The translations under genes were made by a program, and so were the position numbers. 56,040 nucleotides of DNA, taken from assembly GCA_025455065.1 (NCBI GenBank), contig JALONG010000044.1, forward strand, positions 1 to 56,040. Direction: 5' to 3'. Source of the DNA: Candidatus Kapaibacterium sp. Its GTDB lineage: Bacteria; Bacteroidota; Ignavibacteria; Kapaibacteriales; UBA4661. Below are positions 8,538-55,779 of this stretch, piece after piece. Position 1 is the first letter of the stretch. Each line of letters opens with the position of its first letter. The notes under the pieces were generated by a model. It saw only the letters and a program-made list of their open reading frames with translations. It was not told the DNA's origin and made no database searches.

Positions 8538-10859
8538 ATGCCATTATCACGCTTGGCTGCTTTCGTGCGCTTTTGTGCAATATCACGGAATATCGGTTTT
8601 TGCATCAACTTGTTCTTGTTGGTGCAAATTCCGTATTCTGCGCTTGTGCAGTCCGCATTTGCGCAGACCTCACTTCGTAACGCCGATATTATCAGGCTGC
8701 ACAATCAATCTAACCCAATTCCGATGATTGATTTTGTTGAGTATGCGATTGATTCCACGCGGAAGCGTTCTGTGGAGGGCATTGCGCAGCAGTGGCGCGA
8801 AAAGCAAGGTTTTATGCGCCCTCAGTCCAAGGGGTTGAGTTTTGGCATTAGCACAAATGTGTATTGGCTGACCTTTGCTGTGCAGATGTCAGATTCCATG
8901 CCGCTTGTGGAGCGTAATGCGTGGCTTTTGGAGATAGGGCATCCGGTCTTGGACACGGTGTATGTGTATTGGCAAGATAGTGCGGGAGCGTGGCAAAAGC
9001 AGAATTTTGGGGATGCGTTTCCCATTTCGACGCGCCCCATTTTTGACCGAAATTTTCTTCTGCCCTTGCGCCACGCGGACACTAGTGTGCATCGGTATTT
9101 TATCCGTATTGCGAGCGGTAGTTCGATACAAATTCCGCTCACGCTCTACAAAAGCGAAGTGTTTCGCCAGACAAGCATTTATGCTGCATTGGGGTTTGGA
9201 GTGTATTTTGGTGCAATGGTGATTTTAGCGGTGTATAATCTGTTTTTGGGGTTCGCACTTCGTCATCGCTCGTATTTCTACTATGCGGCATTTATTCTGG
9301 GGGTTGCCGTTTTTTTCGCCTACTTTTCCGGCTATCTTTCTCAATATGTTGTGGGCGAATATCCTTCGCTTTCGCATTCTATTGTGCCGTCCAGCATTAC
9401 TATTTCCATAATGTTGTTGATGTTCTTCTCGATGGAGTTTTTGCAAACTCGTGAGCGTTCCCGCTTGCTGCATAGCGCATTGCAAGGTATTTTGCTCCTT
9501 TCAGTGGTGTTGTTAGCAGTGTTTCAACTCCTATCTCCACAACTCAATACGCTTTGCTGTGTTGCTCTGACAACCATTGGACCGCTTGCAACATTTATTG
9601 CTTCTATTGTTTGCTGGCGCACGGGAAATCGTTCCGCGCCGTATCTACTCTTGGCGATGCTGATGTTTTTGTTGGGGAATTATTTGAACAATGTTATTTC
9701 GCTGGGCTTCACGTATCGGCACCCGCTGACGGGACATCTTGCGGAAATCGGTTCACTGTGCGAAGGGGTCTTGCTCTCGTTTGCACTTGCTGACCGTTAT
9801 CGCGCCTTGCGTCAAGAAAAAGAAGCCGCACAGTATGAGGCATTGCGGGTGCAAAAGGAAGCTACCGAACACTTGGAGGAAAAAGTCCACGAGCGCACAT
9901 TGGAATTGGAGGAAAGCAATAGTGAGATTCGGCGGCAAATGGAAATTTTGGACGACCAAGCTCACACTATCGAACTTTCCAACGTGTCGCTTCAAGAAAA
10001 AAATATGCTGTTGGAAAAGCATGACCACGAAAAAAATGAACTTATCAGCATCGTCGCACACGACCTCAAAAACCCGCTCACCAGCATCCGCATGAATGCT
10101 TCGATGATTCGCTCCTACCGTGAGCGGCTGACGAACGAAAAACTCTTGGAGACCGCAGAGCGCATCGAATCTACTTCCGAGCGGATGCACGGAATTATTA
10201 TGAGCCTCCTGGATTCACACGCGCTGGAAACAGGCGCAATGCAAATGACCATGACGCAATTTCCACTCGCCCCGCTTGTGGACGAGGTTGTGCAAGAATA
10301 CATCACGTCTGCGGCACAAAAAAACATTCGTCTTAGCTTTGAGGCAAGCATTGATGCAAGAATTAATGCGGTTTCTGCGTTGGTTCTTGCCGATAAAGCA
10401 AAATTGCGTGAAGTGATTGAAAATTTGGTCTCCAATGCGGTGAAATACTCGCCGAGGGGGAAGAATGTTTGGGTGCGGGTTGGTCATTCGTCATTAGCCA
10501 TTGGTCGGGGAGAAGGTCATTCGTCATTCGTCATTGGTCATTGGTCAAACGACAATCTTTCACGCAAGACCACTGCTGACGCAGCCCACACGCCTAATGA
10601 CCAATGGCTAATGACCAATGACTGTCTTCGTATCGAAGTTCAAGACGAAGGACCAGGCATTTCGGAAGAAGATATGAAAAAACTCTTTGGGAAATTTGCC
10701 CGCCTTTCCGCCCGTCCGACAGGCGGGGAACACAGTACGGGGCTGGGCTTGAGCATCGTCAAAAAAATGGTCGAAGCGATGAATGGTAAGGTTTGGTGTG
10801 AATCGGAATTGGGAAACGGTGCGACATTTATTGTGGAATTCTGGGCAGTTTCTTCGTAA
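8538..10859 (+). CDS. 7TMR-DISM sensor histidine kinase
   Basis: About 773 residues. From the ATG at 8538 there is a signal peptide ending near SAFA-QTS, a periplasmic 7TMR-DISMED2-like beta domain (about 45-205; NVYWLTF, GHPVLDTVYVYW), seven TM helices (about 210-425), a coiled coil, the H-box with His508 (VAHDLKNPLTS) and a full HATPase (N-box ENLVSNAVKYSP, DEGPGIS, FARLSARPTGG, GLGLSIVKK). DISMED2 domains are thought to bind carbohydrate or other small ligands. A ~47-residue insert encoded by a palindromic repeat (10483-10622) interrupts the hairpin before the G1 box without breaking the frame. The response regulator starts 42 nt downstream and is the likely partner. Confidence 0.92.
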   Translation: MPLSRLAAFVRFCAISRNIGFCINLFLLVQIPYSALVQSAFAQTSLRNADIIRLHNQSNPIPMIDFVEYAIDSTRKRSVEGIAQQWREKQGFMRPQSKGLSFGISTNVYWLTFAVQMSDSMPLVERNAWLLEIGHPVLDTVYVYWQDSAGAWQKQNFGDAFPISTRPIFDRNFLLPLRHADTSVHRYFIRIASGSSIQIPLTLYKSEVFRQTSIYAALGFGVYFGAMVILAVYNLFLGFALRHRSYFYYAAFILGVAVFFAYFSGYLSQYVVGEYPSLSHSIVPSSITISIMLLMFFSMEFLQTRERSRLLHSALQGILLLSVVLLAVFQLLSPQLNTLCCVALTTIGPLATFIASIVCWRTGNRSAPYLLLAMLMFLLGNYLNNVISLGFTYRHPLTGHLAEIGSLCEGVLLSFALADRYRALRQEKEAAQYEALRVQKEATEHLEEKVHERTLELEESNSEIRRQMEILDDQAHTIELSNVSLQEKNMLLEKHDHEKNELISIVAHDLKNPLTSIRMNASMIRSYRERLTNEKLLETAERIESTSERMHGIIMSLLDSHALETGAMQMTMTQFPLAPLVDEVVQEYITSAAQKNIRLSFEASIDARINAVSALVLADKAKLREVIENLVSNAVKYSPRGKNVWVRVGHSSLAIGRGEGHSSFVIGHWSNDNLSRKTTADAAHTPNDQWLMTNDCLRIEVQDEGPGISEEDMKKLFGKFARLSARPTGGEHSTGLGLSIVKKMVEAMNGKVWCESELGNGATFIVEFWAVSS
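10483..10622. repeat. Palindromic element in frame inside HATPase domain
   Basis: Arms 10483-10506 and 10599-10622 are reverse complements at 23 of 24 positions (GTCATTCGTCATTAGCC... / ...GGCTAATGACCAATGAC). The interior repeats GTCATTCGTCATTGGTC. The whole element is translated (HSSLAIG..., ...NDQWLMTND) between strand VWVRV and strand LRIEVQDEGPG. Confidence 0.88.
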
Positions 10860-10901
10860 ATTGTCATTTGTTCTCTCACCGCACCATCAAATTTCCTCGT
10901 T

Positions 10902-11576
10902 ATGGTTTCCCCTATTACGCCTTTGCGCGTCCTCGTTGCCGACGACCACGAGATAGCCCGTTTTGCACTCGTACAATGGTTACGCTTTGAGCAGGAGTCA
11001 AATGCTGGTACTATTGTCGAAATACTTGCCGTTGCCACCTGCCAAAAGGCGTTGGAGACGATTCGTGCCGCGCTTGGCAAGGACAATGCTGTTGATATGC
11101 TAATTATTGATTTAGACCTGCCCGATATGACGGGCTTGGAAGCAATACAAATTCTCCGCTCCGAAGGTTGGCAAAAGCCCATTTTGGTTATTTCCGGTTC
11201 GTACATCGGTACTGCCAAAGATGCACTGGCGGCGGGCGCGAACGGCTTTCTTTCCAAACAAGAAGCTCAAGATGTTTTTCTGGAAGGATTTCGTTTTATC
11301 GCTCAGAACCCTCATTCACAGTGGGTTAGTCCGCAGACGCACCGTCAAATCATGCTTTCCGAATCCATGCTTAAAAAAGCCGACCTCACGTCTGCCGAGC
11401 AGAACGTACTGCGCTATATCAAACGTTCCAACAAAGAAATTGCCGACGAACTCGGCATTACCGAAAGCACCGTCAAAAAACACCTGTGGAGTATTTTTCA
11501 AAAGCTGGGAATTTCCTCGCGCTATGATGCGATTGCTTTTGCTGTGGAAGCGGGGTTGATTGCGACACGGCACTAA
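10902..11576 (+). CDS. NarL/LuxR-family response regulator
   Basis: 224 residues. An N-terminal receiver has the acidic pair Asp14-Asp15 (VADDHE), phospho-acceptor Asp70 (LIIDLDLPD) and the conserved Lys in FLSKQEA. A C-terminal LuxR-type HTH (about 155-215) reads LTSAEQNVLRYI, NKEIADELGITESTVKKHL and IFQKLGISSR. Phosphorylation by a kinase should promote dimerisation and DNA binding. It lies 42 nt after the 7TMR-DISM kinase, probably co-transcribed, and is the only free-standing response regulator in the window, so it may also serve other kinases here (inference). Confidence 0.93.
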   Translation: MVSPITPLRVLVADDHEIARFALVQWLRFEQESNAGTIVEILAVATCQKALETIRAALGKDNAVDMLIIDLDLPDMTGLEAIQILRSEGWQKPILVISGSYIGTAKDALAAGANGFLSKQEAQDVFLEGFRFIAQNPHSQWVSPQTHRQIMLSESMLKKADLTSAEQNVLRYIKRSNKEIADELGITESTVKKHLWSIFQKLGISSRYDAIAFAVEAGLIATRH

Positions 11577-11600
11577 TTTTTACTAAAAAAATTTCACCAA

Positions 11601-11647
11601 AAAAATGGCGTTGTTCCTTTCTTTACGCAAAGAACAACGCCATTTTT
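11601..11647. terminator. Bidirectional terminator between convergent genes
   Basis: A 16-bp perfect stem (AAAAATGGCGTTGTTC / GAACAACGCCATTTTT) with a 15-nt loop, flanked by A and T runs. It serves the regulator on the plus strand and the protease on the minus strand. Confidence 0.9.
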
Positions 11648-11664
11648 TGTTATCACAAAGAGTT

Positions 11665-15141: not shown

Positions 15142-15321
15142 ATTGCGAAAGGAGATGAGTTGAAGAAAGTGTGTATTTGTGCGGAGTGTAAACAACTAAA
15201 AAATATTTGTATCTGTTCAAATAATTCGTGTTGGAGAATTTAGGCTTACGAAAAACTAACGAGATTCAATTTGCACTCCGCAAATATAGCAACGAATACT
15301 ATTGTCAGACATTTAGTGGTC

Positions 15322-27684: not shown

Positions 27685-27828
27685 ATAGACCATCTTTTCA
27701 GGGGTTTCCCACGTTCAATACATTTTCTTTACTGCGTTCGTCAAAAACACGTTGTTATCGAAACATTAAAAGGTATGATTGTGTTGGTTGATTTATCGTT
27801 CCAAGTAGCAAACTTGTCCGGAAGACTA

Positions 27829-30036
27829 ATGATGACAAAATTTACGAAAGGATTGGTACAGTTGGTGCTGCTGCTGGTGTTCGGCATTTGCATTTGTGCA
27901 AATATGCTTTCGGCTCAGACAAACGGAACTGTGGAGAGCGCCTCAGCACTCAATCAACGTGCTGAACGCCTCAGCACAATTTCGCCCGAAGTGGCGCTCA
28001 GAAGCGCCCGAGCAGCATTAGAGAAGGCAGGTCAAGAAAAAAATATCCGCGAACAAGCCCAGGCAAATGCGATTATCGGTGCGGTTCTCCGTTTTCAAGA
28101 CCAATACGATTCCGCACTGGTGTATCAAAAATTGGCGCTGGCTCTTTTCAGGGACATCCGCGACACGCTTGGAATAGCGGGGGCGCTCGTGAATATCGGT
28201 GGTGTGTACCAAAGCAGAGGTGATTACGCAAGCGCTATGGAGCATTATTTCCAAGCCTTGATTCTGTACGAATTGCGCGGCGATAAACGTGGTATTGCGA
28301 AAAGCCGTGCCAGTATTGGCGTTGCTTATACGCTCAAGGGTGAATTACCAGCCGCATTAGAAGCGCAACGCCAAGCACTTACCTTGAGAACTACACTGCA
28401 CGATGAGCAGGGAATCGCTCACTCGTTGAGAAATATCGGTCATGTACAAGAAAAAATGCATAATTTAGATTCCGCATTGTGGTTCTATGAGCAAGCATTA
28501 AAGCGCTTTGAGCGCATTGGTGATATGCAGGGCGTAGCGCTTTCATTGGGGAGTTTGGGAAATGTATTCGACCAACGCGGTGAAAACAACAACGCACGCG
28601 AATTTTACATCAAAGCAATCCCTCTGCATGAGCAATTAGGCGACAAGCGAGGGCTTGCGGTAGTGCATAACAACATTGCTGCGGGGTTTCTTCGTCAAAA
28701 TGATGCCCGTCAAGCATTACGCTTTGCCGAGCGTGCCTTGAGGATTGCCGAAGAAATCGGAGCCTGGGCGGAACAGCGCGATGCAAATAAACACCTTGCC
28801 GATGCTTATACCGCGCTTGGCAATGAAACCCTTGCTTTTGCAGCCTTTCGGAATTATGTGACGTTAAAAGATTCTATTCAAAACATCCAAAATTCCCAGC
28901 GTATAAGCGATTTGCAAACCCGCTATGACATCGCCGAAAAAGACCGCGCTCTTGCCGCTGCCGAACACGCTCGGAACGTGGAGCAAATGAATGCTCGCAA
29001 CGTGCGACTGACTCTGGTGATTGCGATTGTTGTTTTTGCAATCATTATCGGCTTGCTTGTGAATGGATACCGCATAAAACGGCACTCTGAGCGTACACTT
29101 CGCCGCCAAAATGAGGAAATTTTATACCAGCAAAAGTTATTGCAGGAACAAGCCGAAGAAATTGCTTTTACCAACAAAGAACTTTTGGCAACTAACTCGC
29201 TGTTGGAAGAAAAAAATGAGCTACTTTCCACCTTGAACACGGAAAAAAACGAATTTTTAGGCATTGCTGCACACGACTTGAAAAACCCCTTGGCAAACAT
29301 TCTGCTTACGGTGCAACTTATGGAAGAATACAAGCCGCAAGAAGGGGCGGAGAAATTTGTGGAATGGATACAAAGTGTCACGCGCAGCGCGGAGTATATG
29401 CTCAATATCATTCGGAATCTGTTGGATGTTAATAAAATCGAAGCCGGCAAGGTGGAAATGCACCTTGAGCCGATAGATGTCGCGCTGGTAGAACTCATCG
29501 CTGATGCCTATGCGTTTCGTGCAGAAGAAAAAGGAATACGGCTTGTCATTGAGCCTCCAAAGCAACGTTTCTTTGTGCTTGCCGACCACAGTGCGCTTCA
29601 GCAGGTCTTGGAAAACCTTATTTCCAATGCTATCAAATTTTCTCCGCATGGGAAAAGTATCTATGTCAAAATTCTTTCTTCGGAAGACGCTTCTTCGTCA
29701 TTAGCCAATGGTCATTTGTCGGGTGATAATGCCCATAAGCCCAATGCCGACGATACCCACACCCACAAGACGAATGACCAATTGCAAATGATCAATGGTT
29801 ATGTACGTCTTGAAATAGCCGACGAAGGTCCGGGAATTTCTGAGGAGGATATGAAAAAAATGTTTGGGAAATTCGCCCGACTTTCTGCCCGTCCGACAGG
29901 CGGCGAACACAGTACCGGTCTGGGCTTGAGTATTGTCAAAAAAATGGTCGAGGCGATGAATGGGCGCGTGTGGTGCGAATCGGAACTTGGCAAGGGCGCA
30001 ACATTCGTGGTGGAATTACCACGCACGAAACTCTGA
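27829..30036 (+). CDS. TPR sensor histidine kinase
   Basis: About 735 residues. From the ATG at 27829 (in-frame ATG at 27775 upstream) there is a signal peptide ending near NMLSAQ, then about seven TPR units (LGIAGALVNIGGVYQSRG, HNNIAAGFLRQNDARQA), a TM helix (about 388-408; LVIAIVVFAIIIGLLV), a long coiled coil, H-box His482 (AAHDLKNPLAN) and a complete HATPase. A palindromic insert of the GTCATT/ATTGGTC family sits in frame before the G1 box (29697-29792). The next TPR kinase starts 24 nt after its stop, so the two probably form one transcript. Periplasmic TPR domains usually sense through partner proteins; none is known here. Confidence 0.92.
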   Translation: MMTKFTKGLVQLVLLLVFGICICANMLSAQTNGTVESASALNQRAERLSTISPEVALRSARAALEKAGQEKNIREQAQANAIIGAVLRFQDQYDSALVYQKLALALFRDIRDTLGIAGALVNIGGVYQSRGDYASAMEHYFQALILYELRGDKRGIAKSRASIGVAYTLKGELPAALEAQRQALTLRTTLHDEQGIAHSLRNIGHVQEKMHNLDSALWFYEQALKRFERIGDMQGVALSLGSLGNVFDQRGENNNAREFYIKAIPLHEQLGDKRGLAVVHNNIAAGFLRQNDARQALRFAERALRIAEEIGAWAEQRDANKHLADAYTALGNETLAFAAFRNYVTLKDSIQNIQNSQRISDLQTRYDIAEKDRALAAAEHARNVEQMNARNVRLTLVIAIVVFAIIIGLLVNGYRIKRHSERTLRRQNEEILYQQKLLQEQAEEIAFTNKELLATNSLLEEKNELLSTLNTEKNEFLGIAAHDLKNPLANILLTVQLMEEYKPQEGAEKFVEWIQSVTRSAEYMLNIIRNLLDVNKIEAGKVEMHLEPIDVALVELIADAYAFRAEEKGIRLVIEPPKQRFFVLADHSALQQVLENLISNAIKFSPHGKSIYVKILSSEDASSSLANGHLSGDNAHKPNADDTHTHKTNDQLQMINGYVRLEIADEGPGISEEDMKKMFGKFARLSARPTGGEHSTGLGLSIVKKMVEAMNGRVWCESELGKGATFVVELPRTKL
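29697..29792. repeat. Palindromic element in frame inside HATPase domain (degenerate)
   Basis: Arms 29697-29720 (GTCATTAGCCAATGG...) and 29769-29792 (GACGAATGACCA...) are partly complementary, with several mismatches. Same family and same protein position as the element at 10483-10622, so probably an older copy. Confidence 0.75.
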
Positions 30037-30059: not shown

Positions 30060-32204
30060 ATGCCCTTTATGGAACGTATAATCATGCGAAGCACAGGAAT
30101 CCAAAGCATAACAATGCAAAGCATAAAAAACATTGTGTTGATGCTACTTACGATACATTCTATCGTAACGGCGACGTTTGCACAAGACCGATTGCGAGAT
30201 TCGTTGGATACTGTACGGACACTATACGAACACCGTACTGATACTCTCGCGGCTCGTGTGTTAGCTGAGATTGCTGTGGAGTATGTTGAATTTGACAGCC
30301 GATTTGCCGTGAGCATTGCTCAACGAGCTGATTCTTTGGGGCTTGCCATGCCTGTATCATCGCAACGAGCCCGTATTCTCAACAATGTAGGCTATGTGTT
30401 TCGTGCAGACGGCAGATATACTGAGGCGTTGGAGTATTTTTCCCGTGCGCTCACAATAGCAAAAACTATCGGGGATAACGGAGAAACTGCCCAAGCATTA
30501 GTTGAGACAGGGGTTATTGAAGGGTATTTGGGGAAGGTTGATAAGGAGTTTGGCTATTTTGTTGAGGCAGTGCCATTCGCAGAGCGTTCGGGAAATCCTC
30601 GTTTACTGGCACTTGCGTTGTATCGTTTGGCTTCGGCAATGTACTACACCAAAAAAAATTATCATCGCGCCGACAGTCTTTATACGGAAGCCCTGCGGTT
30701 ATGCGGGGAAGGAAACGACGAGATACGGGCAAGAGTGCTGATGAGTCGGGCAAATTTCTCTAATTTTTTGAAGCAACCGGAACGCCAACTGAGGGATTAC
30801 CGCGAAGCATTAGCTATCAATAAAAACTTGGGTTATCTGCGGAGTGTTGGTCGCACGTGCAGCAATTTGGGATGGATGTTTACGCAACGCGGCGAATTAG
30901 ATTCGGCGCTTTTTTATATGAACGAATGTGTCCGGCTTTACGAAGAAACGAAGTATGCAGGCGGCTTGGCAAATGCTTTGACGACGCTTGCTTTAGTACA
31001 AAATAAACGTGGTCGTTACAACGAAGCAATAGCTTCGGCACAACGTGCCTTGTCGTATTCGATACCCTTGGGGGAACTGCCCGAACAGCTGACCGCATAC
31101 GAAAATTTGTCGGAATCGTATTCTGCATTAGGCAATTACCGCAATGCTTGGGACGCTGAAAAAAGTGCGAACGATTTGCAGAAAAAGATGTATAACGGTG
31201 CCGTAGCAAAGAATCTAGCGGAGTTGGAGCGATTACAAAAAGAGCAGCAAATCGAGTTGCTTCAGCGCGATAAAGCGCGTCAGGATATATTGCGGAACGG
31301 TCTGATACTTGTTCTGATACTTGTTTTGATGTATTCGGTAACGCTGGTGCGGAATAATCTCCGCAAAAACCGTGATAACGCTTACCTTCAAGAACTCAAC
31401 CATCGGCTTGAACGACAAAACACTGACCTGACGACCTACAATGCTGAGAAAAACGAGATTATGGGCATTGTTGCGCATGACCTAAAAAACCCTATTGCGG
31501 CAGTACGCGGTTTTGCAGACCTTATTCATACAGGTCTTGTAGAGAAACCGCAGACAGAGGAGATAGCAGGGGTTATTGTTGGTACAGCTGACAGAATGTT
31601 GGGCTTGGTCGAAAACTTGCTGGATGTTAATCGTTTGGAACAAGAAGGTGCTCATTTTACGCTTATTGCCTTCGATTGCACACCCATCATTGAAAGTGTG
31701 ATAGAGCAGTATCAACAAGCCGCCGCCGCAAAAGACATCTCACTGCATTATTCTTCCTTGACTTCACGAAATATCATCTTTGCCGACGAGCAAGCGCTCA
31801 TGCAGGTTCTGGATAATCTTGTTTCCAATGCCGTTAAGTATTCGCCGCATGGGAAAAACGTATTTGTGAGGATAAAGGATAATGGCAACGGGCAAAGGGT
31901 GAACAACAACACCGAACCTTCTTCGCTTGACTCTTCGTTCCTTATCCACCATCCCTCAGCCTTTATCCCTTGTCTTCGTATCGAAGTCGCTGACGAAGGT
32001 CCCGGCATTTCGCCTGAAGATATGAAAAAACTCTTCGGCAAATTCGCTCGTCTTTCCGCCCGCCCGACAGGTGGCGAACATAGTACCGGTCTTGGTTTGA
32101 GCATTGTCAAAAAAATGGTCGAGGCGATGAACGGTCGCGTCTGGTGTGAATCTGAACTGGGCAAAGGCGCAACGTTTATTGTAGAATTGCCGATGTTTCG
32201 ATAA
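30060..32204 (+). CDS. TPR sensor histidine kinase
   Basis: 714 residues from the ATG at 30060; in-frame ATGs at 30084 and 30114 would give a tidier signal peptide, which ends near TATFAQ. Periplasmic TPR units (about 60-390; ARILNNVGYVFRADGRY, GRTCSNLGWMFTQRGEL) are followed by a TM helix (about 418-436), coiled coil, H-box His473 (VAHDLKNPIAA), N-box DNLVSNAVKYSP and the array-type ATP-binding tail. The opening of the periplasmic region (RDSLD... then RTDT..AR.LA.IA.EY) parallels the kinase at 17409. A ~30-residue low-complexity insert, of a different repeat type, sits in the hairpin before the G1 box. Starts 24 nt after the preceding TPR kinase stop. Confidence 0.92.
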   Translation: MPFMERIIMRSTGIQSITMQSIKNIVLMLLTIHSIVTATFAQDRLRDSLDTVRTLYEHRTDTLAARVLAEIAVEYVEFDSRFAVSIAQRADSLGLAMPVSSQRARILNNVGYVFRADGRYTEALEYFSRALTIAKTIGDNGETAQALVETGVIEGYLGKVDKEFGYFVEAVPFAERSGNPRLLALALYRLASAMYYTKKNYHRADSLYTEALRLCGEGNDEIRARVLMSRANFSNFLKQPERQLRDYREALAINKNLGYLRSVGRTCSNLGWMFTQRGELDSALFYMNECVRLYEETKYAGGLANALTTLALVQNKRGRYNEAIASAQRALSYSIPLGELPEQLTAYENLSESYSALGNYRNAWDAEKSANDLQKKMYNGAVAKNLAELERLQKEQQIELLQRDKARQDILRNGLILVLILVLMYSVTLVRNNLRKNRDNAYLQELNHRLERQNTDLTTYNAEKNEIMGIVAHDLKNPIAAVRGFADLIHTGLVEKPQTEEIAGVIVGTADRMLGLVENLLDVNRLEQEGAHFTLIAFDCTPIIESVIEQYQQAAAAKDISLHYSSLTSRNIIFADEQALMQVLDNLVSNAVKYSPHGKNVFVRIKDNGNGQRVNNNTEPSSLDSSFLIHHPSAFIPCLRIEVADEGPGISPEDMKKLFGKFARLSARPTGGEHSTGLGLSIVKKMVEAMNGRVWCESELGKGATFIVELPMFR
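31869..31972. repeat. Insert of a second repeat type in the same HATPase loop
   Basis: Bases near the left end (AGGATAAAGGATAATGG) and right end (CCTTATCCACC, CCTTTATCCCTT) are partly complementary GGATAAAGG/CCTTTATCC words. The insert keeps the frame and lies where the other kinases carry GTCATT-type elements. Confidence 0.5.
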
Positions 32205-36733: not shown

Positions 36734-39700
36734 AAAAGTTCTCTTTCATCATTTTTCCTGTACTCTCCTGCGTTGTACTCTCCTGCGTTGTACTCTCCTG
36801 CGTTGTACTTCTCTGTGTTGCGCCATTGGTGATGGTACTCTTGCCCTCAGTGCTTTACGCGCAATTGCCGCAACCATCTGGCTTAGACCCATATAAAGAC
36901 CTCTCGCAATTTATTCACAAAGTTTGGCAAACCGAGCAAGGTTTGCCACAAAATTCCGCCTACACCCTCTGCCAAACCCGTGATGGATACTTGTGGATTG
37001 GTACTGCCGAGGGCTTGGCACGGTACGACGGTGTGCGTTTTACGGTATTCGACAAAACCACAACACCAGCGCTGACGAGCAACTGGATTTCCTCTCTGGC
37101 AGAAGGCAAGGACGGCAGGCTTTGGATTGGGACACGATTGGGAGTAGTTTGTCTCCACAAGGGCGTGTTTAGGAACTATTCGTCCGAAGGTATTTTCCCA
37201 AGCACTCTTGTTCGTGCGCTTTTGCTTGACCGCACTGGTGGGCTGTGGGTGGGAACAAACGGGAGCGGTCTGCATTATCTGGGTACAGAATCCCAAACTT
37301 CTGTACAACCTCAAACCTCCCAGGATAGTAGTATCAAGGCTTCCATCCGTCAAGGCGGCTTGGCTAATGGCGTGGTGCTATCGCTTACGCAAGGCGCGGA
37401 TGGGGCAATTTGGGCAGGTACGCAAACAAGCGGTTTGTATCGTTTGCAGAATGGCACGGTTACTCGTTACGGTTTGCAACAAGGTCTGCCGAATGTTGTC
37501 GTGCGTACTTTGCTCGCAGACCGTAATGGACGTACTATCTGGCTTGGCGCGAATGATGGTTTGTACTGTCTTCAGAACGATAGGGTTACGCGCTTTATTG
37601 GCAAAAATGCGCTTATAGGCAATACCAGCATTCAATGTTTGCTGCACGACCGCATGGGTACGCTATGGATTGGGCTTTATGGCGGTGGTGTGCAGCGTCT
37701 CCGTGATAGTGTGTTCACTGGGTTCACGGCGGCGCAGGGCTTGTCGAACGATATTGTGCAGAGTCTTTTGCAAGACCGCGAGGGGAGTTTGTGGATAGGT
37801 ACCTTTGGCGGTGGCTTGAATAGGCTTCACGACGGTGCATTGACAACATACACCCCGAAGCAAGGTCTTTCCAACAAACTTGTCAATGCTGTTCTGCGCG
37901 ATGAGCGTGGCGTACTCTGGGCTGCAACGAATGGGGGCGGTGTGAGCTGCATGAAATCTGGTACATTCACAACATACACCACAAAAAAAGGCTTGCTGAA
38001 CGACGTAACGGCATCACTGATGTCCCACAACGGCACGCTCTGGATTGGCACAGTCGAGGGCTTGAACCAGTTGCAGAATGGGCGGTTTACGCAGTACACC
38101 ACGCGAGAGGGGTTGTCGCATAATTCTGTTTGGACAATGCTCCACGATAGCGATACGAAAAACGGCGGAAGCGTGATTTGGTGCGGTACGCAGAACGGGC
38201 TAAATCGTTTTCATAACGGTATATTTACGCACTACACCACAGCAAATGGCTTATCGAACAACGTCGTGCTTTGTCTGAAAAAAGACCGCAACGAAGGTCG
38301 GAATCAGAACGCAACAGACAGTAGCGGTGCGCTCTGGATTGGCACACAAGACGGTTTGAATAAACTGCACAACGGCGTAATCACGCAATACACCATGCGG
38401 GATGGATTATCAAGTAATTTTATCTGGGCAATGCTGCAAGAAGCAGACGGCACACTCTGGCTGGGGACAAGTGCCGGGCTGAACCGCTTCAAGAACGGCG
38501 TGTTTACTGCCTTCACAACGAAAAATGGAATGTTCGATGACCTTGCCTTTTCGATTGTAGAGGATGATTTCGGATATTTCTGGATGTCGTGCAACAAAGG
38601 CATATACCGCGTTCGGAAGGCAGATTTGAACGCTTTTGCCGATGGCGGAAAACGGCAGCGAATTTCCTGTGAGGTCTTCGGTACTGCCGATGGTATGGCG
38701 AGTGCGGAGTGTAATGGCGGCTCCCCGTCGGCTTGGAAAGATAGCGACGGATGCTTGTGGTTTGCGACTATTGCGGGCGTTGCGATGGTTAATCCTCGTG
38801 ATTTGAAAACAAATCCCGTTCCGCCCACAGTGATTTTGGAGAGCATCAAAGCAGACAGTATCGAACTCAGTGTCCCGCAAATGAGCGTTGATACTGTACC
38901 GAATGAGGCAATATCTGACAAATCCGCTCAAAATGCTATCATTATCCCTCCGAACACAGAGAAATTTGAATTTCGCTATACCGCCACCAGCCTCGTCGTT
39001 CCGGAGCGAGTGCGTTTTCAGTATATGCTTGAAGGTTACGATAAAGACTGGACGGATGCGGGAAATCGCCGCGTGGCATATTACAACAATCTCCCGCGTG
39101 GTCGTGAGTACCGTTTTCGTGTAAGAGCCTGTAATAATAGTGGTGTTTGGAGTACCGGCTTCAGCGATGCAACAATGGCGTTTATGCTGGAATTATTTTA
39201 TTACGAAACGTGGTGGTTCCGATTCGCGTGTGCTGTGGTGGTGATTGCTGCTTGTGTCTGGGCGGTGCGTTCACGCCTAAACATTCTTCAACAACGTGCA
39301 GCAATGCTGGAAAGCGCTGTGCAAGAGCGTACCCGTGAACTCGCCGATACAAACCAAGCATTGTACGAAAAAAATCAACAACTGGAATTGCTCAACATTG
39401 AAAAGAATGAATTACTCGGCATTGTCTCGCATGACTTGAAAAACCCTATTGGAGCGGTGCGGGGGTTTGCGGAACTTTTGCAAAGTGGTTTTTTGAGCGA
39501 TGACCAAACATCGGCGGCAGCACACATTGTGTCTATTTCCGACCGAATGTTGGATTTAGTGAAAAACTTATTGGATATTAATCGCCTAGAATCGGGTGGA
39601 ATGCAATTTTGGATTATCAATTTTGATGTTGCAGCGATTATTGCTAGCGAAGTTTCTCTGCACCAACAAGGAGCATCGGAAAAAAATATCACCATACATT

Positions 39701-40074
39701 TCAGTAATGAAGCATCGGATAGCTCCATCTCTGCCGACGAACCAGCCATGATGCAGGTGCTGGACAATCTTCTCTCGAATGCTGTTAAATATTCTCCTTA
39801 CGGCAAAGATGTTTTTGTCCGACTCTCGAACAATGAGAATGCCGTGCGTATAGAAGTTCAGGACGAAGGCGAAGGAATTTCGCCTGAGGATATGAAAAAA
39901 CTCTTTGGCAAATTTGCCCGTCTTTCCGCTCGACCAACGGGCGGCGAACACAGTACCGGTCTGGGTTTAAGCATTGTCAAAAAGATGGTGGAGGCTATGA
40001 ATGGGCGTGTGTGGTGTGAATCGGAATTAGGCAACGGTGCGACGTTTATTGTGGAGTTGCCCAAAACCGACTGA
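36730..40074 (+). CDS. Reg_prop/Y_Y_Y propeller sensor histidine kinase
   Basis: 1114 residues. The signal peptide contains a 15-bp tandem repeat (VLSCV units) and ends near LYAQL. About twelve Reg_prop blades follow (DGYLWIGTAEGLARYDG, GTLWIGLYGGGVQRL, GALWIGTQDGLNKL), then a Y_Y_Y beta-sandwich (about 735-820; FEFRYTATSLVVPERV, LPRGREYRFRVRACNN), a TM helix (about 830-850), coiled coil, H-box His901 (VSHDLKNPIGA), N-box DNLLSNAVKYSP and array-type HATPase tail. This is the sensor half of the hybrid systems that Bacteroides uses for polysaccharides, but without the fused receiver and AraC domain. The ATG overlaps the previous stop (ATGA). Confidence 0.93.
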   Translation: MKKFSFIIFPVLSCVVLSCVVLSCVVLLCVAPLVMVLLPSVLYAQLPQPSGLDPYKDLSQFIHKVWQTEQGLPQNSAYTLCQTRDGYLWIGTAEGLARYDGVRFTVFDKTTTPALTSNWISSLAEGKDGRLWIGTRLGVVCLHKGVFRNYSSEGIFPSTLVRALLLDRTGGLWVGTNGSGLHYLGTESQTSVQPQTSQDSSIKASIRQGGLANGVVLSLTQGADGAIWAGTQTSGLYRLQNGTVTRYGLQQGLPNVVVRTLLADRNGRTIWLGANDGLYCLQNDRVTRFIGKNALIGNTSIQCLLHDRMGTLWIGLYGGGVQRLRDSVFTGFTAAQGLSNDIVQSLLQDREGSLWIGTFGGGLNRLHDGALTTYTPKQGLSNKLVNAVLRDERGVLWAATNGGGVSCMKSGTFTTYTTKKGLLNDVTASLMSHNGTLWIGTVEGLNQLQNGRFTQYTTREGLSHNSVWTMLHDSDTKNGGSVIWCGTQNGLNRFHNGIFTHYTTANGLSNNVVLCLKKDRNEGRNQNATDSSGALWIGTQDGLNKLHNGVITQYTMRDGLSSNFIWAMLQEADGTLWLGTSAGLNRFKNGVFTAFTTKNGMFDDLAFSIVEDDFGYFWMSCNKGIYRVRKADLNAFADGGKRQRISCEVFGTADGMASAECNGGSPSAWKDSDGCLWFATIAGVAMVNPRDLKTNPVPPTVILESIKADSIELSVPQMSVDTVPNEAISDKSAQNAIIIPPNTEKFEFRYTATSLVVPERVRFQYMLEGYDKDWTDAGNRRVAYYNNLPRGREYRFRVRACNNSGVWSTGFSDATMAFMLELFYYETWWFRFACAVVVIAACVWAVRSRLNILQQRAAMLESAVQERTRELADTNQALYEKNQQLELLNIEKNELLGIVSHDLKNPIGAVRGFAELLQSGFLSDDQTSAAAHIVSISDRMLDLVKNLLDINRLESGGMQFWIINFDVAAIIASEVSLHQQGASEKNITIHFSNEASDSSISADEPAMMQVLDNLLSNAVKYSPYGKDVFVRLSNNENAVRIEVQDEGEGISPEDMKKLFGKFARLSARPTGGEHSTGLGLSIVKKMVEAMNGRVWCESELGNGATFIVELPKTD
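36759..36818 (+). repeat. 15-bp tandem repeat in signal peptide
   Basis: Four units of TGTACTCTCCTGCGT; three are perfect and the fourth is diverged. Each adds five residues (VLSCV) to the hydrophobic core, so copy-number change keeps the frame. Confidence 0.88.
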
Positions 40075-43865: not shown

Positions 43866-43937
43866 CGTCATCGTGTGTTATGTATCGCTTTTGTCGTATT
43901 TTGGTTGTGCTATGCTATTGACAAAAAAAATCAAGCC

Positions 43938-44090
43938 GAAAATAAAGTTGTCCGTGTTAAAAATAAAGTTGTCCGTGTTAAAAATAAAGTTGTCCGTGTT
44001 AAAAATAAAGTTGTCCGTGTTAAAAATAAAGTTGTCCTTGTCCGTGTTAAAAATAAAGTTGTCCGTGTTAAAAATAAAGTTGTCGGTGGT
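43938..44090 (+). repeat. 21-bp minisatellite (AAAAATAAAGTTGTCCGTGTT)
   Basis: About seven head-to-tail copies, the first and last partial or diverged. One unit (44022-44048) is 27 nt through a 6-nt internal duplication. Unit lengths are multiples of three, so several frames stay open across it, giving heptad-like peptides such as KNKVVRV or IKLSVLK. No spacers, so not CRISPR. Confidence 0.92.
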
Positions 44091-44125
44091 TGTTCTTCTG
44101 TAGTATTCTTTCGCCGTTCGTCGTT

Positions 44126-45403
44126 ATGCTGAAAATCAAAAAATCTTCCGACCAAGCGCCCATGCAAGAATCATCGCCTTCCTCGCAGAAAGAGCGAAGG
44201 TTGCTGATTGTTGATGATGAAGCAGGAATTTTGCTCTTGCTTAACAGTTTATTTTCTCCATTCTACTCCGTCCGTACCGCCGAATCTGGCGCAGAAGCGC
44301 TTGCACTCTTACGTGAAGGATTTTCGCCGGAAGTAATTATCGCCGACCAACGGATGCCCGAAATGACGGGCGCGGAATTTCTGGGCGAAAGCCGTAAACT
44401 TCTTCCTAATGCTGTTCGTGTAACGCTCACAGGCTACACCGACATCAAGGAAATTGTCGCAAGCGTTAATAACGGCGCGATTTATCGCTTTATCGGCAAG
44501 CCGTGGGAAGATGCAGAGCTGTTGGAAACGATTCGTTTGTGTTTTGAGCAGTATGATTTTTCCACCAAACACGCAGAACTGGAAGCAGCATTAGAGCGAG
44601 TGCAGATGCTGAATCTGGAAAAAAATGAGATTATGGGCATTGTCTCGCATGACCTGAAAAACCCCATTAGTGCGGTTTTGGGCATGACGGAACTGATGAA
44701 ATCGGGCGGAGGTTTTGAATTATCACCGAGTGATTACCAGAAATTTTCCGGGATGATTCACCAAACAGCACTGAATATGTTGGAACTTGTTAAAGGATTG
44801 CTGGATGACCATTGGCTGGAATCCGGCTCTATGGTTCTCTCGCTTGTGGCGATAGATGCAAGTGTCCAAGCGAAATTTGTTGTGAGTGATTATCAGCAGC
44901 GAGCGATGGATAAAAACATTACAATCCATTGTGAAGCAAGTCCCAAAGCAATCGCTCTTGCCGATGAACGCCGATTACATCAGGTCTTGGATAACCTCGT
45001 TTCCAACGCGGTGAAATACTCACCAACGGGAACGCAAGTATTTGTGAGGGTGAAAGAAAGTCATTCGTCATTAGCCATTGGGCATTGGTCGGGCGACAAT
45101 GACCGAGCAACCACCTCTGATGGTGTGCCTAAGCCTAATGACCAAGAGCCAATGACCAATGATCGCTTTGTTCGCATCGAAATTCAAGACCAAGGTCCCG
45201 GACTAACCGATGACGATAAATCAAAACTGTTCGGAAAATTTGCCCGACTTTCTGCGCAGCCGACGGGCGGCGAACACAGTTCCGGTCTGGGACTCAGCAT
45301 TGTCAAAAAAATGGTGGATGCAATGAACGGCAAGGTTTGGTGCGAATCCGAATATGGACACGGAGCAACATTCATTGTAGAACTTCCTGCCGCGCAAGCA
45401 TAA
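44126..45403 (+). CDS. Receiver - histidine kinase (REC-HisKA-HATPase)
   Basis: About 426 residues, soluble. From the ATG at 44126 the N-terminal receiver shows the acidic pair in LLIVDDEAG, phospho-acceptor Asp74 (VIIADQRMPEMTG), the Thr/Gly switch in TLTGYTD and the Lys in FIGKPW. This receiver type is often seen on HD-GYP regulators. It is followed by H-box His175 (VSHDLKNPISA), N-box DNLVSNAVKYSP and HATPase with array tail. It could accept phosphate from other kinases here and pass the signal by modulating its own kinase activity. A palindromic insert interrupts the hairpin before the G1 box (45060-45163), where DQGPGLTDDD replaces the usual DEGPGIS. The stop shares a base with the next ATG (TAATG). 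Confidence 0.92.
   Translation: MLKIKKSSDQAPMQESSPSSQKERRLLIVDDEAGILLLLNSLFSPFYSVRTAESGAEALALLREGFSPEVIIADQRMPEMTGAEFLGESRKLLPNAVRVTLTGYTDIKEIVASVNNGAIYRFIGKPWEDAELLETIRLCFEQYDFSTKHAELEAALERVQMLNLEKNEIMGIVSHDLKNPISAVLGMTELMKSGGGFELSPSDYQKFSGMIHQTALNMLELVKGLLDDHWLESGSMVLSLVAIDASVQAKFVVSDYQQRAMDKNITIHCEASPKAIALADERRLHQVLDNLVSNAVKYSPTGTQVFVRVKESHSSLAIGHWSGDNDRATTSDGVPKPNDQEPMTNDRFVRIEIQDQGPGLTDDDKSKLFGKFARLSAQPTGGEHSSGLGLSIVKKMVDAMNGKVWCESEYGHGATFIVELPAAQA
45060..45163. repeat. Palindromic element in frame inside HATPase domain
   Basis: Starts GTCATTCGTCATTAGCCATT and ends in ...GAGCCAATGACCAATGAT, largely reverse complementary. It is translated (HSSLAIGHW ... NDQEPMTND) between VFVRVK and VRIEIQDQGPG, the same site as in the kinases at 8538, 27829 and 52318. 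Confidence 0.85.
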
Positions 45404-48969: not shown

Positions 48970-49158
48970 GAATGCTTCGACGGGAGCAGATATTCGAGCC
49001 GTTTTTCACGACCAAAGGCGAGCGCAATAGCGGCTTGGGAATCAGTATCGTGAAAAAAAATGGTGGAGGCAATAGCCGAGAACGGGCGCGTGTGGTGTGA
49101 ATCTGAACTTGGCAAAGGCGCAACATTTATTGTGGAATTGCCGCTTCAATCTTTGTAG
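48970..49158 (+). pseudogene. Histidine kinase C-terminal remnant, chimeric and frame-shifted
   Basis: Translation shows REQIFEPFFTTKGERNSGLGIS IVKK in one frame, then after a run of eight A (49052-49059) the match continues in another frame as MVEA, NGRVWCESELGKGATFIVELP and stops at 49158. The first part is like the kinase class of the gene at 45403; the second is the array tail. There is no H-box or N-box upstream; 48808-48969 shows only weak, broken coding signal. It is a decayed gene end or recombination relic. Confidence 0.8.
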
Positions 49159-49186
49159 AATCAATCTTTGTAGAATCAATCTTTTA
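49146..49186 (+). repeat. 15-bp tandem repeat at remnant stop
   Basis: TCAATCTTTGTAGAA occurs twice in a row with a third partial copy. Each full copy carries an in-frame TAG, which multiplies the stop of the kinase remnant. Confidence 0.8.
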
Positions 49187-49319
49187 TGGGATTATTATGA
49201 AGAAATGCTCATCGAAAGCGAGTAATGTGGTATATTGAGTGAACCCTTGAGCGTACTGTCGAAATTATTATTACTTGCAAGAATAATTGCAAACCGCACC
49301 TGATTATCACCATTTTTCC

Positions 49320-52270: not shown

Positions 52271-52317
52271 ATTATGCCTGATAGTTTGAACATGCGTCCA
52301 TTGTTCTGCTCGCGTCT

Positions 52318-55300
52318 ATGAAATCCCTCTTTTTTGTTATTGCGCTCGTTTACTCGCCCCTTTTTGTACTGCCCAATCTTTTTGTGCAGCAGCAATTTCT
52401 CACTCCTTCATCACACATTGCACCTGCTACAAACCAGACACAGCAAGGTCTCAGGCAGTACATCATTCGTCAATGGAAACGTGAACACGGTATGGCGGAA
52501 AACAGCATTCTTTGTATTTGTCAAACGGAAGACGGCTATCTCTGGATGGGAACAGAGGAGTCAGGTTTGATACGATTCGACGGGCATCGCTTTCGCACCT
52601 TCACGCCCCAAAATTCCCCTCTACCCGATGCTGCTATTCGTTCGCTCACGGAAGACCGTTTGGGAACGTTGTGGATAGGCACTGCAAGCGGCGTGGCTAC
52701 CTTCAAAAACGGGAAGTGGCGGGTGTTCTCTCGTGCCGATTCAATGCCCGAAAACCGCACCTTCACGCTGCTCGCAGACCGTAAGGATGGTGTGTGGATA
52801 GGTTCTCTTGAGGGGGTTTTCTATCGGTCATCACACGGAACGGTGCATTATAGTAAGGATAACGGCAGTGGGCTTCGCAGTAACAATATTCGTGCCTTGG
52901 CTTTTGACAGTGCAGGAGTGCTACACATCGGCACATTTGGCGGAGGTATTTATCGCTTGGACTTAGGAAATGGGCATTGCATCGAAGAAAAAACGGAAGC
53001 AGGATATTCCACCATAAAAAACGTTCTTGCGCTCTGTACGCAGCCGGACGGCGCGATGTGGGCTGCTTCTCAAGAAGGATTGTATTACAAAGGACACTCC
53101 GCCGATAGTGTGTGGCGCATGGTGTATTCATCGGAGTGGCTTGGTGCAATCAATGTCAAACGCCTTGTCGTAGAGCGCACAAGTGGCGCACTTTGGATTG
53201 GTACGATGGGCGGAGGCTTATATCGTTTAGAGGGCAAACCTATATACGGAAAGCCTGAGCAAGGAAAACCCGGACAAGGAAAGTCTGCTGAAGGATGCCG
53301 TTTACAGCGATTTTCCACCGAAGAAGGTTTGGTAAATAATGGTATTGAGGCATTAGTATTTGACCACGAAGGTTCGCTTTGGGTGGGAACGGACGGTGGA
53401 CTCAATCAACTCCGTGAAGGTAGCGTAAAACCTTTGCTGGTGGGTGGAAAACCGTTTACAGAAATTACTAACAGCGTACTGCTCGACGCAGAACAAAGGC
53501 TATGGGTAGGAACGCTGCAAGGATTGTATATGCTCAGGGATTCGGGGTTTTTCGGGCAGGAACACCGCGATTTTACCCTCTTCACCAAAGAACACGGGCT
53601 GAAAAGCCTTATGATTACTGCGCTTTTTCAAGATCGCTTCGGGCGGCTTTGGGTGGGGACAAACACGGGCGGTTTGCATCTGCGCGAAGGTCGGCGCTTT
53701 CGGAGTTTCACGCCAGCAGAAGGATTTGCCGGAAATGTTGTGCGCATCGTTGTAGAGGATAGCACCGGAAATATCTGGGCGGGCACCGACGCTGGTGTAA
53801 GCAAACTCACGTTAGAGCGTGGCGTTTGGCGCGTTCAATCGTTTACCCCGCAAACAGGCTTGCGGCGCGGGGTATGTGCCAGCCTCGCCTATCACGCTCG
53901 CACGAAGACTATCTGGGTGGGGCAGATTGTCGGCGAGAAAAATGTTATACAAATTTTAGACACTAACGGAAACTTTGTCAAAGAAATTCCTCTACCTGTC
54001 GCAGGTACAAGCGTTGCTGCGATTACGACCAATTCCTCCGATGGGCAATTATGGATAAGTACCAACAAAGGGCTTGGAATCTATAATGACGAGAAATTCT
54101 CGTGGTTTACCACTAACGAAGGATTGCCCACCAATGTTATCGGGGCAATACTTCATGACGAAAAAAATGTGCAATGGATAGCTACGGGGCAAGGAATTAT
54201 GCGTGTGAGCATAACAAGTTTTGCTCGGAATGTTGCCAAAAACGGAACGGCGACCATTCCGCGCATTGACAATGATTCGTCGTACCGATTATTCATCAAT
54301 GCTGATGGGATGCTGGATCCGAGTTGTGCAAAAGATGAGGGCAGCTCTGTTTTTGCCGCACCGAACGGGCGCTTGTTCTTTGCCACAGATCGTGGTGTTT
54401 CCATGTTGAGAAGCAATGCGATATTGCACAATAACCAGCAGCCGAATGTTTGGGTGGAGGCAGTCAGAGCCGACGGTCGTTGTGTGCTGGACAATACCGA
54501 TTCCACAAGGTTTGATGCGTTGTTGCTGCCATACACTACAAATGCCTTGGAGATTGACTACACCGCCTTGAGTCTTGAAGTGCCAGAGGCGGTGCGATTC
54601 GAGTATCTGCTTGAAGGCTACGACAAACACTGGACGCAAGCAGGAGCGAGGCGCACGGCGTATTACACCAATCTTCCCTTCGGAGCATCATACCGTTTTC
54701 GTGTTCGGGCGTGTAACAATCACGGCGTGTGGAGCGAGACGCGGGAGCCGTTGGTGTTTGCGGTCAAAGCGCCGTGGTGGGCTTCATGGTGGGCGTATTG
54801 TCTGTATGCGACTTTAGGGGCGGTTTTGGTGAGAATTAGCTTGCAGCGCCGTGACCACTCTCAACGCAAAAAAATTCTGGAGGAGCAGCGTGAACGCGAG
54901 GCAGAAATTGTGCGCAGGAAAAATGCCGAACTTGCTGAGGCAAATACTGAACTTGCCGATGCTAACGAAGAATTACAACTCTTAAACGCAGAAAAAAATG
55001 AGTTGTTTGGCATTGTTGCGCACGATTTGAAAAATCCGCTTGGAGCAATTATGCTTAGTGCGGAGCTTGTACAGATGCGCTCTGCCGGTAATATCAATGT
55101 GCTGGAATATGCCGATAATATTTTGCGCAGTTCGGAGCGGATGATGGAACTCATCAAAAATTTACTGGATGTCAATGCCATTGAGCGCGGAGGAATGAGT
55201 TTTTCGCCAGTTCATGTTGATATAGGAATGGTGCTTGTGGGCATCGTGGAGCATTACTACGCATCGGCAGCCATAAAAAATATCCGCATACACTATGACT

Positions 55301-55779
55301 TTAAGCCCAATATGATTGCGTATGCCGATGAACTCGCAAGCATACAAATCATGGACAATCTTATTTCTAATGCGGTGAAGTATTCGCCGCATGACAAGAA
55401 TGTTTGGGTACGAATTAGTCATTCGTTCTTAGGCATTGGTCATGGGGCAGGTGACAATGGCGCAAGCCATTCGTCTTTAGCCATTGGTCATTTGTCAAAC
55501 GATAACAGCTCTCGACCAATGACCAATGACCAAGTAACCAATGACTATCTTCGCATCGAAGTCGCCGACGAAGGCCCCGGTATTTCTGCGGAAGATATGA
55601 AAAAACTTTTTGGCAAATTTGCCCGACTTTCTGCTCGTCCGACAGGTGGTGAACACAGTACCGGACTGGGCTTGAGTATTGCCAAAAAAATGGTGGAAGC
55701 GATGAACGGGCGTGTATGGTGCGAGTCGGAATTGGGGAAAGGTGCGACGTTTATTGTGGAATTGCCAAGCACTGCGTAA
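52318..55779 (+). CDS. Reg_prop/Y_Y_Y propeller sensor histidine kinase
   Basis: 1153 residues. A signal peptide or anchor (about 1-22) is followed by Reg_prop blades (DGYLWMGTEESGLIRFDG, GTLWIGTASGVATF, GRLWVGTNTGGLHL), a Y_Y_Y domain (about 740-820; LEIDYTALSLEVPEAV, LPFGASYRFRVRACNN), a TM helix, a charged coiled coil, H-box His902 (VAHDLKNPLGA), N-box DNLISNAVKYSP and HATPase with array tail (G2 reads GLGLSIAKK). It is the closest relative of the gene at 36730 in its sensor. No receiver or AraC domain is fused. A palindromic insert (55418-55545) interrupts the hairpin before the G1 box in frame. It is last in the co-directional series. Confidence 0.93.
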   Translation: MKSLFFVIALVYSPLFVLPNLFVQQQFLTPSSHIAPATNQTQQGLRQYIIRQWKREHGMAENSILCICQTEDGYLWMGTEESGLIRFDGHRFRTFTPQNSPLPDAAIRSLTEDRLGTLWIGTASGVATFKNGKWRVFSRADSMPENRTFTLLADRKDGVWIGSLEGVFYRSSHGTVHYSKDNGSGLRSNNIRALAFDSAGVLHIGTFGGGIYRLDLGNGHCIEEKTEAGYSTIKNVLALCTQPDGAMWAASQEGLYYKGHSADSVWRMVYSSEWLGAINVKRLVVERTSGALWIGTMGGGLYRLEGKPIYGKPEQGKPGQGKSAEGCRLQRFSTEEGLVNNGIEALVFDHEGSLWVGTDGGLNQLREGSVKPLLVGGKPFTEITNSVLLDAEQRLWVGTLQGLYMLRDSGFFGQEHRDFTLFTKEHGLKSLMITALFQDRFGRLWVGTNTGGLHLREGRRFRSFTPAEGFAGNVVRIVVEDSTGNIWAGTDAGVSKLTLERGVWRVQSFTPQTGLRRGVCASLAYHARTKTIWVGQIVGEKNVIQILDTNGNFVKEIPLPVAGTSVAAITTNSSDGQLWISTNKGLGIYNDEKFSWFTTNEGLPTNVIGAILHDEKNVQWIATGQGIMRVSITSFARNVAKNGTATIPRIDNDSSYRLFINADGMLDPSCAKDEGSSVFAAPNGRLFFATDRGVSMLRSNAILHNNQQPNVWVEAVRADGRCVLDNTDSTRFDALLLPYTTNALEIDYTALSLEVPEAVRFEYLLEGYDKHWTQAGARRTAYYTNLPFGASYRFRVRACNNHGVWSETREPLVFAVKAPWWASWWAYCLYATLGAVLVRISLQRRDHSQRKKILEEQREREAEIVRRKNAELAEANTELADANEELQLLNAEKNELFGIVAHDLKNPLGAIMLSAELVQMRSAGNINVLEYADNILRSSERMMELIKNLLDVNAIERGGMSFSPVHVDIGMVLVGIVEHYYASAAIKNIRIHYDFKPNMIAYADELASIQIMDNLISNAVKYSPHDKNVWVRISHSFLGIGHGAGDNGASHSSLAIGHLSNDNSSRPMTNDQVTNDYLRIEVADEGPGISAEDMKKLFGKFARLSARPTGGEHSTGLGLSIAKKMVEAMNGRVWCESELGKGATFIVELPSTA
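55418..55545. repeat. Palindromic element in frame inside HATPase domain
   Basis: Left words GTCATTCGTTCTTAGGCATT and CATTCGTCTTTAGCCATTGG face right words GACCAATGACCAATGACC and AACCAATGAC. Translated as SHSFLGIGH ... MTNDQVTND between VWVRI and LRIEVADEGPG. It seems to hold two left half-elements. Confidence 0.82.

Follow-up and report, generated by a model that had tools for sequence, protein, structure and literature searches.

A dispersed palindromic element, similar in kind to those of Rickettsia, lies in frame in kinase loops and unrelated proteins of Candidatus Kapaibacterium sp.

The contig JALONG010000044.1 of the Candidatus Kapaibacterium sp. assembly GCA_025455065.1, analyzed here over its whole length of 56,040 bases and referred to as the window (contig C131), carries four sensor histidine kinase genes in which a palindromic DNA element is read in frame through the same hairpin loop of the HATPase domain. 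These inserts belong to a genome-wide dispersed family of hairpin-forming elements, ~70-140 nt long and made of GTCATTN heptamers, that also sits in frame in unrelated genes. The element is real and broader than was first noted: it resembles in kind the Rickettsia palindromic elements (RPE), in another phylum, with another architecture and with several entries at one site. The explanation that we consider probable is that this RPE-like dispersed DNA entered tolerated turns of proteins many times. The genome comprises 5.61 Mb in 131 contigs, and the nearest named relatives of one window kinase are metagenome-assembled genomes labelled Ignavibacteria bacterium or Candidatus Kapaibacterium. Contigs of this genome are labelled C, the genomes of relatives G001-G009, and individual examined stretches L.

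Palindromic inserts in the kinase loop and in other genes

The four window elements and the open reading frames (ORFs) that host them are as follows.

8469..10859, forward strand: host gene, 7TMR-DISM sensor histidine kinase (HisKA, HATPase_c)
10483..10622, forward strand: palindromic element of the long form, left arm doubled, in the HATPase hairpin of ORF 8469-10859
10483..10622, forward strand, parts of this element: first arm from 10483, then full-length model match 10516-10620
10483..10506, forward strand: outer left arm, 24 nt, of inverted repeat I4, 96% complementary to 10599-10622
10599..10622, forward strand: outer right arm, 24 nt, of inverted repeat I4
27775..30036, forward strand: host gene, TPR sensor histidine kinase (HisKA, HATPase_c)
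29697..29792, forward strand: palindromic element, long-centre form, in ORF 27775-30036
44090..45403, forward strand: host gene, response-regulator receiver with HisKA and HATPase_c
45060..45163, forward strand: palindromic element, long-centre form, in ORF 44090-45403
52318..55779, forward strand: host gene, two-component propeller / Y_Y_Y sensor histidine kinase (HisKA, HATPase_c)
55418..55545, forward strand: palindromic element in ORF 52318-55779, made up of a partial copy (model match 55418-55462) and, after it, a short-centre copy (55467-55543)

Each element is free of stop codons in the frame of its gene and lies between a V.V(R/K)(V/I) strand and an R(I/L)E(V/I).D(E/Q)GPG strand. When the folding of the DNA was compared with that of 200 dinucleotide shuffles, with equal-length stretches of the same genes as controls, the four elements gave z scores of -5.16, -3.46, -3.70 and -4.67, with 0/200 shuffles as good in each case, while the four control stretches gave -1.30, +1.26, -2.16 and -1.44, between 6 and 183 of their 200 shuffles folding as well. 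The positions, the reading frames and these z scores confirm the claim of the initial annotation that four in-frame palindromic inserts occupy one HATPase loop. In total, seven element inserts were tested by folding, with z from -3.46 to -8.25 and 0/200 shuffles for each.

In the stretches taken from this genome, 85 kinase loops were read from N-box to G1, 30 of which have the plain length of 22 residues. Eleven of the 83 loops that remained after a length filter carry the element, in the same HATPase hairpin; as the stretches were taken around matches, carrier counts here and below are lower bounds. In addition, the element lies in frame in six non-kinase genes, those for leucyl-tRNA synthetase (LeuRS; C39), KdpB (C57), MutS (C88), TrmO (C60), a type ISP restriction-modification enzyme (C53) and a cyclase-like gene that is cut by the end of its contig (C123). 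These copies rule out a kinase-only element and do not support the earlier proposal that a single site of a paralogous protein family is targeted. PBP1C (C51) and DnaE (C81) also contain stretches that resemble the right arm, with TNDQ or SNQ.

The embedded copies share one orientation and one frame, giving a peptide that begins HSSLAIGH and ends TNDQ. Twenty-nine places in this genome were compared, where "inside a gene" means within a stop-to-stop frame of at least 200 codons with a match to a protein family or to the kinase alignment; the embedded status of C15:16602 is ambiguous, and weaker or unread model matches such as C114:154163, C119, C89:4929 and C112:7866 fall outside the comparison. 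Sixteen places are inside genes (10 kinase, 6 other) and all are open in the gene frame, which in 11 of the 16 is the only open frame among six. By comparison, 10 of the 13 places that are not clearly embedded have no open frame on that strand. At the protein level, LeuRS has 35 residues where the solved structure 1h3n has 5, and KdpB has 41 where 6hra has 3 (we take these structures to be the T. thermophilus and E. coli proteins). From alignments with known families and from the usual folds of these proteins, the insertion sites would be hairpin tips. The TrmO loop (L119 4023-4267) contains a second repeat-like stretch (EGKGQKDKGN) beside the element, and SNQAT-type stretches are found in the same loop in relatives (L371, L372).

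The words of the element recur throughout the genome. GTCATTNGTCATTNGNC has 58 occurrences in the 5.61 Mb as compared to 0 for a reversed-pattern control, and CYAATGACCAA has 144 as compared to 3, with the individual places known for part of the 144. An alignment of 22 copies reads GTCATTnGTCATTAGCCATTGGTCATTnGTCAGGCGACAAT, a variable centre and CACAnGACnAATGACCAATGnCnAATGAC; its consensus starts GTCATT and is ~100 columns long. The layout is thus a left arm of heptamers and a right arm complementary to it, with a centre between them that is either short or long; the right arm is often lengthened by 15-nt, five-residue tandem units of TNDQV-like sequence. Three forms can be told apart by eye. 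The short-centre form, nearer 75 nt, is found in KdpB, TrmO, MutS and the kinases at 55463 and C66:8597. The long-centre form, with AATACTGAAGC...CACAAGAC, makes up most kinase copies and occurs between genes (e.g., C38:73422 and C95:85983). In the third form the left arm is doubled, with GGGGAGAAG-like purines at the join; it is found in the kinase at 10483 and the type ISP enzyme and, among relatives, in G002 (a cyclase and a kinase) and G004 (a cyclase), and the LeuRS copy resembles it.

The gappy alignment A1 yielded no consensus RNA structure, and the search model R1 is therefore a sequence-only model. With 150 candidates scored per genome, and figures here and below covering the matches listed, R1 gave 107 matches in this genome, both strands counted, so that the number of places is smaller. 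Among 40 clusters outside long frames, AATGAC/CCAA-oriented ends lie within 80 nt of the ATG of an ORF of at least 100 codons 20 times, as compared to 7 for GTCATT-oriented ends (ORFs uncurated, two ends per cluster being possible). Intergenic copies that end in AATGAC/CCAA orientation just upstream of an ATG were seen in stretches L249, L251, L255, L267, L273, L104, L112 and others. Tandem forms of the repeat sit at contig ends (C72:5-149, C58:63614-63697, C78:2-101, C86:50981-51124 and C123:5-156), and the repeat may therefore break the assembly of this genome.

The window contains 18 HATPase N-box-to-G1 loops, and ten of those without the element are plain loops of 22 residues. Two further window kinases have other inserts in the same hairpin loop.

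31845..31991, forward strand: insert of different sequence (SSLDSSFLIHHPSAFIP) in kinase 30060-32204, fold z -1.16, not significant
3691..3816, forward strand: another insert, in kinase 532-4026, fold z -0.74, not significant

A second palindromic family had been suspected by eye in the loop at 31845 and is unsupported by the fold test. Elsewhere in the window, a 21-nt tandem repeat (TTGTCCGTGTTAAAAATAAAG) runs from before ORF 44090-45403 into its start (43927-44109), and 15-nt tandem repeats (TGTACTCTCCTGCGT) lie at the start of ORF 36730-40074 (36744-36818). Genome-wide, the HATPase segment has 184 matches, some genes being split into two, and 91-208 in each same-genus relative.

Occurrence in relatives and empty sites

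The 13-letter word AATGACCAATGAC occurs in 11 of 61 genomes, with 40 occurrences in the present genome, 48 in G009, 13 in G004, 8 in G002 and at most 4 in each of the other seven, while its reversed control has 6 occurrences, in three other genomes. Model R1 had 5-25 matches in five of six same-genus genomes, while G003 and three genomes of other families had 0. Relatives carry the element, again in this frame, in MutS (G001, G002 and G005) and in kinases (G001, G002, G004, G007 and G009); the kinase loci read from G003, G005 and G006 showed no copy, the best 30 kinase loci having been taken for relatives. Further hosts in relatives are MutS2 and a cyclase (each in G004 and, judged from matching flanks, in G002), a GAF-domain protein (G005) and a TamB-domain protein (G006 and, judged in the same way, G005).

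Orthologues that lack the insert were found for two of the non-kinase hosts. All four genomes with a clear KdpB match (G001, G006, G007 and G009; four others gave none) have an empty site. In G006 and G009 the tblastn alignment leaves out query residues 76-109 while the subject pieces abut to the base, and the empty hairpin of G006 reads LVVAEMQDGSVTVLGVIHLKD. For LeuRS, the site is empty in five of eight relatives (G001, G003, G004, G006 and G007); the tblastn pieces abut in G001, G004, G006 and G007, and G003 is empty by sequence (FPLVGHDDGITVYTT). The match in G009 reaches no further than the site, and this genome is not among the five. In G005, the same LeuRS hairpin holds a different insert (LLPEGEGQ..PSPSGRGQGEG; L343 1894-1983) that is itself palindromic (z -3.00, 2/200 shuffles; control stretch -0.57, 59/200), and G002 has yet another insert at the site. 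Taken together, the inserts align with one another, their words recur at many other loci, and many paralogues and some orthologues are without them.

Repeated entry and its alternatives

The kinases provide the test of one insertion against many. A kinase-core tree was built with the loop interior excluded; a motif filter reduced 161 kinases to 105 rows (44 from this genome and 61 from relatives), dropping the carrier C70:14502, and 15 rows carry the element. These 15 rows need 12 changes on the tree, as compared to a mean of 14.1 (range 11-15) for shuffled labels, and holding the carriers as one clade is rejected (approximately unbiased test, p-AU 3e-52). L173, a relative's kinase with an empty loop, is the sister of C131:29644 (support 100), and C70:25587 groups with two empty-loop kinases (support 96). 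Left-arm identity between kinase copies and copies in unrelated genes is 0.82, about the same as among the kinase copies themselves (0.83). Identity at fourfold third positions is 0.60 (204/339) within the inserts as compared to 0.40-0.42 in the flanks of carrier pairs, and the inserts therefore look younger than the carrier gene copies, although this figure comes from 11 carriers and a loose alignment of repetitive DNA and is thus indicative.

These data fit best with repeated independent entry into tolerated turns. Copies would have spread through the genome, landing both between and inside genes, and a copy inside a gene would survive only if it kept the frame, if that frame was free of stops (HSSLAIGH...TNDQ) and if the site was a surface turn. 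Suitable sites would include the hairpin turns of the kinase HATPase domain, of KdpB and of the LeuRS editing domain, as well as linkers such as the MutS C-terminus. The kinase hairpin would have been entered repeatedly because it belongs to a very large paralogous family (85 loops read), because its length is tolerated and because redundancy softens the cost. We infer that the element moves as DNA, that the host proteins remain functional, and that sites are picked by tolerance and not by active targeting.

Besides the looseness of the silent-site alignment, several observations weigh against this reading. Two pairs of carriers are sisters (C66:8538 with L137, support 98; L293 with L150, support 100), which indicates some inheritance by descent. 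Left arms of kinase and intergenic copies share an identity of 0.67, and in the centre and the right arm kinase copies resemble each other (0.70 and 0.81, respectively) somewhat more than they resemble other copies (0.64 and 0.73-0.78). Nucleotide identity among the carriers of this genome rises from 0.55-0.64 before the HATPase loop to 0.67-0.89 after it, and a similarity of the downstream half is common to C66:10951, C66:18637 and C131:29644. Five MutS linkers are without a recognizable left arm, and two of the genomes concerned, G004 and G006, keep right-arm-like residues (TTNDH, SNQATTN) in theirs, so the MutS insert may be one older, shared and decaying insertion. No transposition event, target-site duplication or mobilizing enzyme was seen; the search for a link to a Y1 transposase gave two PF01797 matches with no element cluster in the flanks examined, one of them 180 bases from a contig end. 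Finally, all of these genomes are known from assemblies alone.

The downstream rise in identity would be expected from gene conversion, in which one kinase insertion spread to paralogues together with the loop and the C-terminal half of the HATPase domain. In agreement with this, the upstream sequence speaks against a clade of C66:10951, C66:18637 and C131:29644 (p-AU 0.037) while the downstream sequence does not (0.975), nearest neighbours change between the upstream and downstream trees, and fourfold sites of local paralogues on C131, C66 and C70 go from 0.36 upstream to 0.44 downstream. However, empty-loop partners show an equal downstream rise (C66:14268, 0.89, and C131:39796, 0.85, to C66:10951), and the fourfold sites of carrier pairs are flat (0.40 upstream, 0.42 and 0.40 downstream), so that most of the rise is due to amino-acid conservation and conversion is insufficient as the sole cause. 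Both short-centre and long-centre forms are found in the kinase loop, and the closeness of the left arms to copies in unrelated genes also speaks against it. Conversion is thus an unlikely explanation of the whole pattern, though it may have moved a few copies. The initial annotation had left open whether one insertion spread by conversion or the loop accepts independent insertions; the tree and the arm and silent-site identities favour the latter.

Repeated entry could also have been driven from the DNA side, by a miniature inverted-repeat transposable element (MITE) or repetitive extragenic palindrome (REP) that is moved in trans by a transposase and chooses its target at the DNA level and not by protein tolerance. 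The DNA is indeed dispersed and palindromic, and by eye the left arm comes immediately after GAAG, GAAA, GATA(G) or GAGG in 7 of the 16 embedded copies and after GGAA(G) in 2 of the 13 others. Most copies have no such purine tract, and no enzyme could be linked to the element, the two Y1 transposase matches being away from element clusters in the flanks examined and other transposase families not having been sought. We regard this mode of targeting as improbable, to about the same degree as conversion.

Growth in place of heptamer or 15-nt microsatellites in variable loops, by slippage, is considerably less probable than either. It would account for the heptamer arrays of the arms and the 15-nt units of the right arm, and similar heptamer words occur in plasmids of Nostoc, Scytonema, Rhizobium and others. 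It does not account for the shared non-repetitive centre of the long form, the two-arm palindrome, the fixed orientation in genes, or how one element comes to lie in unrelated genes whose orthologues are empty. The varying length of the right arm is probably due to slippage. Least credible is an ancestral kinase insertion inherited through gene duplication with many losses, which is strongly disfavoured on this sequence evidence by the 12 changes for 15 carriers, the rejected single clade, the empty-loop sisters and the apparent youth of the inserts relative to the paralogue splits, the two grouped carrier pairs being in its favour.

Significance and comparison with known systems

In-frame coding palindromes at high frequency have been reported for Rickettsia (PMC10969869); for this and the other papers cited below, statements refer to the parts of the text available to us. 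An independent family so far from Rickettsia would mean that such palindromes are not peculiar to that genus. In the very large kinase family the same loop occurs both filled and empty within a single genome, and these natural replicates make it testable how repeat DNA finds tolerated protein sites and whether such loops gain function. Since the kinase turn was repeatedly filled and the LeuRS turn holds an unrelated palindrome in G005, repeat DNA may be a lasting source from which essential proteins and signalling kinases gain new loops. We hold the odds to be even that these are protein-invading palindromes of a new lineage in uncultured, non-Rickettsia bacteria, with specific beta-hairpin turns as recurrent landing pads and repeat DNA as such a source. 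Among the matches listed, the titles and abstract beginnings on repeats in Kapabacteria, Ignavibacteria and Bacteroidetes, with few subscription journals covered, reported no in-frame palindromes for this lineage.

Heptamer direct repeats of TAACTGA are known from Beggiatoaceae, Cyanobacteria and some Bacteroidetes (PMC4679880). Like the present element, they form heptamer arrays of which many lie just upstream of start codons in one orientation; unlike it, they are direct and mostly intergenic, with few sets inside ORFs, whereas here the heptamer is another one and the arrangement is palindromic (PMC4679880). Having two arms, and a centre common to the copies of the long form, the element does not belong with heptamer tandem repeats of the STRR-like or TAACTGA-like type. 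Its heptamer-rich part aligns at 79-94% over ~30-65 nt with GTCATT-type arrays in plasmids of Nostoc, Scytonema, Rhizobium and others, but no place among these matches covers 80% of the 140-nt element, and the kinase-type insert peptide, in a query with one wrong residue, gave no plasmid match. REP sequences are palindromes of 20-40 bp with a GTAG or CGTC tag at one end (PMC3733652), unlike the consensus here, which starts GTCATT and spans ~100 columns. The element also differs from REPs with an associated transposase (RAYT), neither Y1 transposase match being flanked by element clusters in the flanks examined.

Among repeats that enter genes, the enterobacterial ERIC/RU elements are likewise small mobile repeats with an open frame inside genes, though size and hosts differ, and the comparison is by description (PMC2759123). 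The coding inverted repeats of Nematomorpha mitochondria similarly lie inside functional genes; there, however, the arms are conserved host sequence, while here the sequence is added and is missing from some orthologues (PMC6649704). RPE, described by Ogata et al. (2000, 2002), are dispersed palindromic repeats of ~150 bp with a conserved peptide, many of them in frame in unrelated genes (PMC10969869, PMC6649704), and nearly half of the copies are inserted into ORFs (PMC10969869). The present element was compared with them as a kind, by description and not by sequence, and no Rickettsia record was among its 16 plasmid matches. Because its host differs and the comparison was by description, it is not classed as an RPE. 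It belongs to another lineage, it is built of GTCATTN heptamers, and it entered one protein loop repeatedly across paralogues. It shares with RPE the dispersed palindrome (~70-140 nt here, short-centre copies being nearer 75 nt), the in-frame position in unrelated genes, the absence from orthologues and the conserved peptide from one frame. The likeness first proposed for these inserts therefore holds as an analogy, through the unrelated genes, the same frame and the empty sites in relatives.

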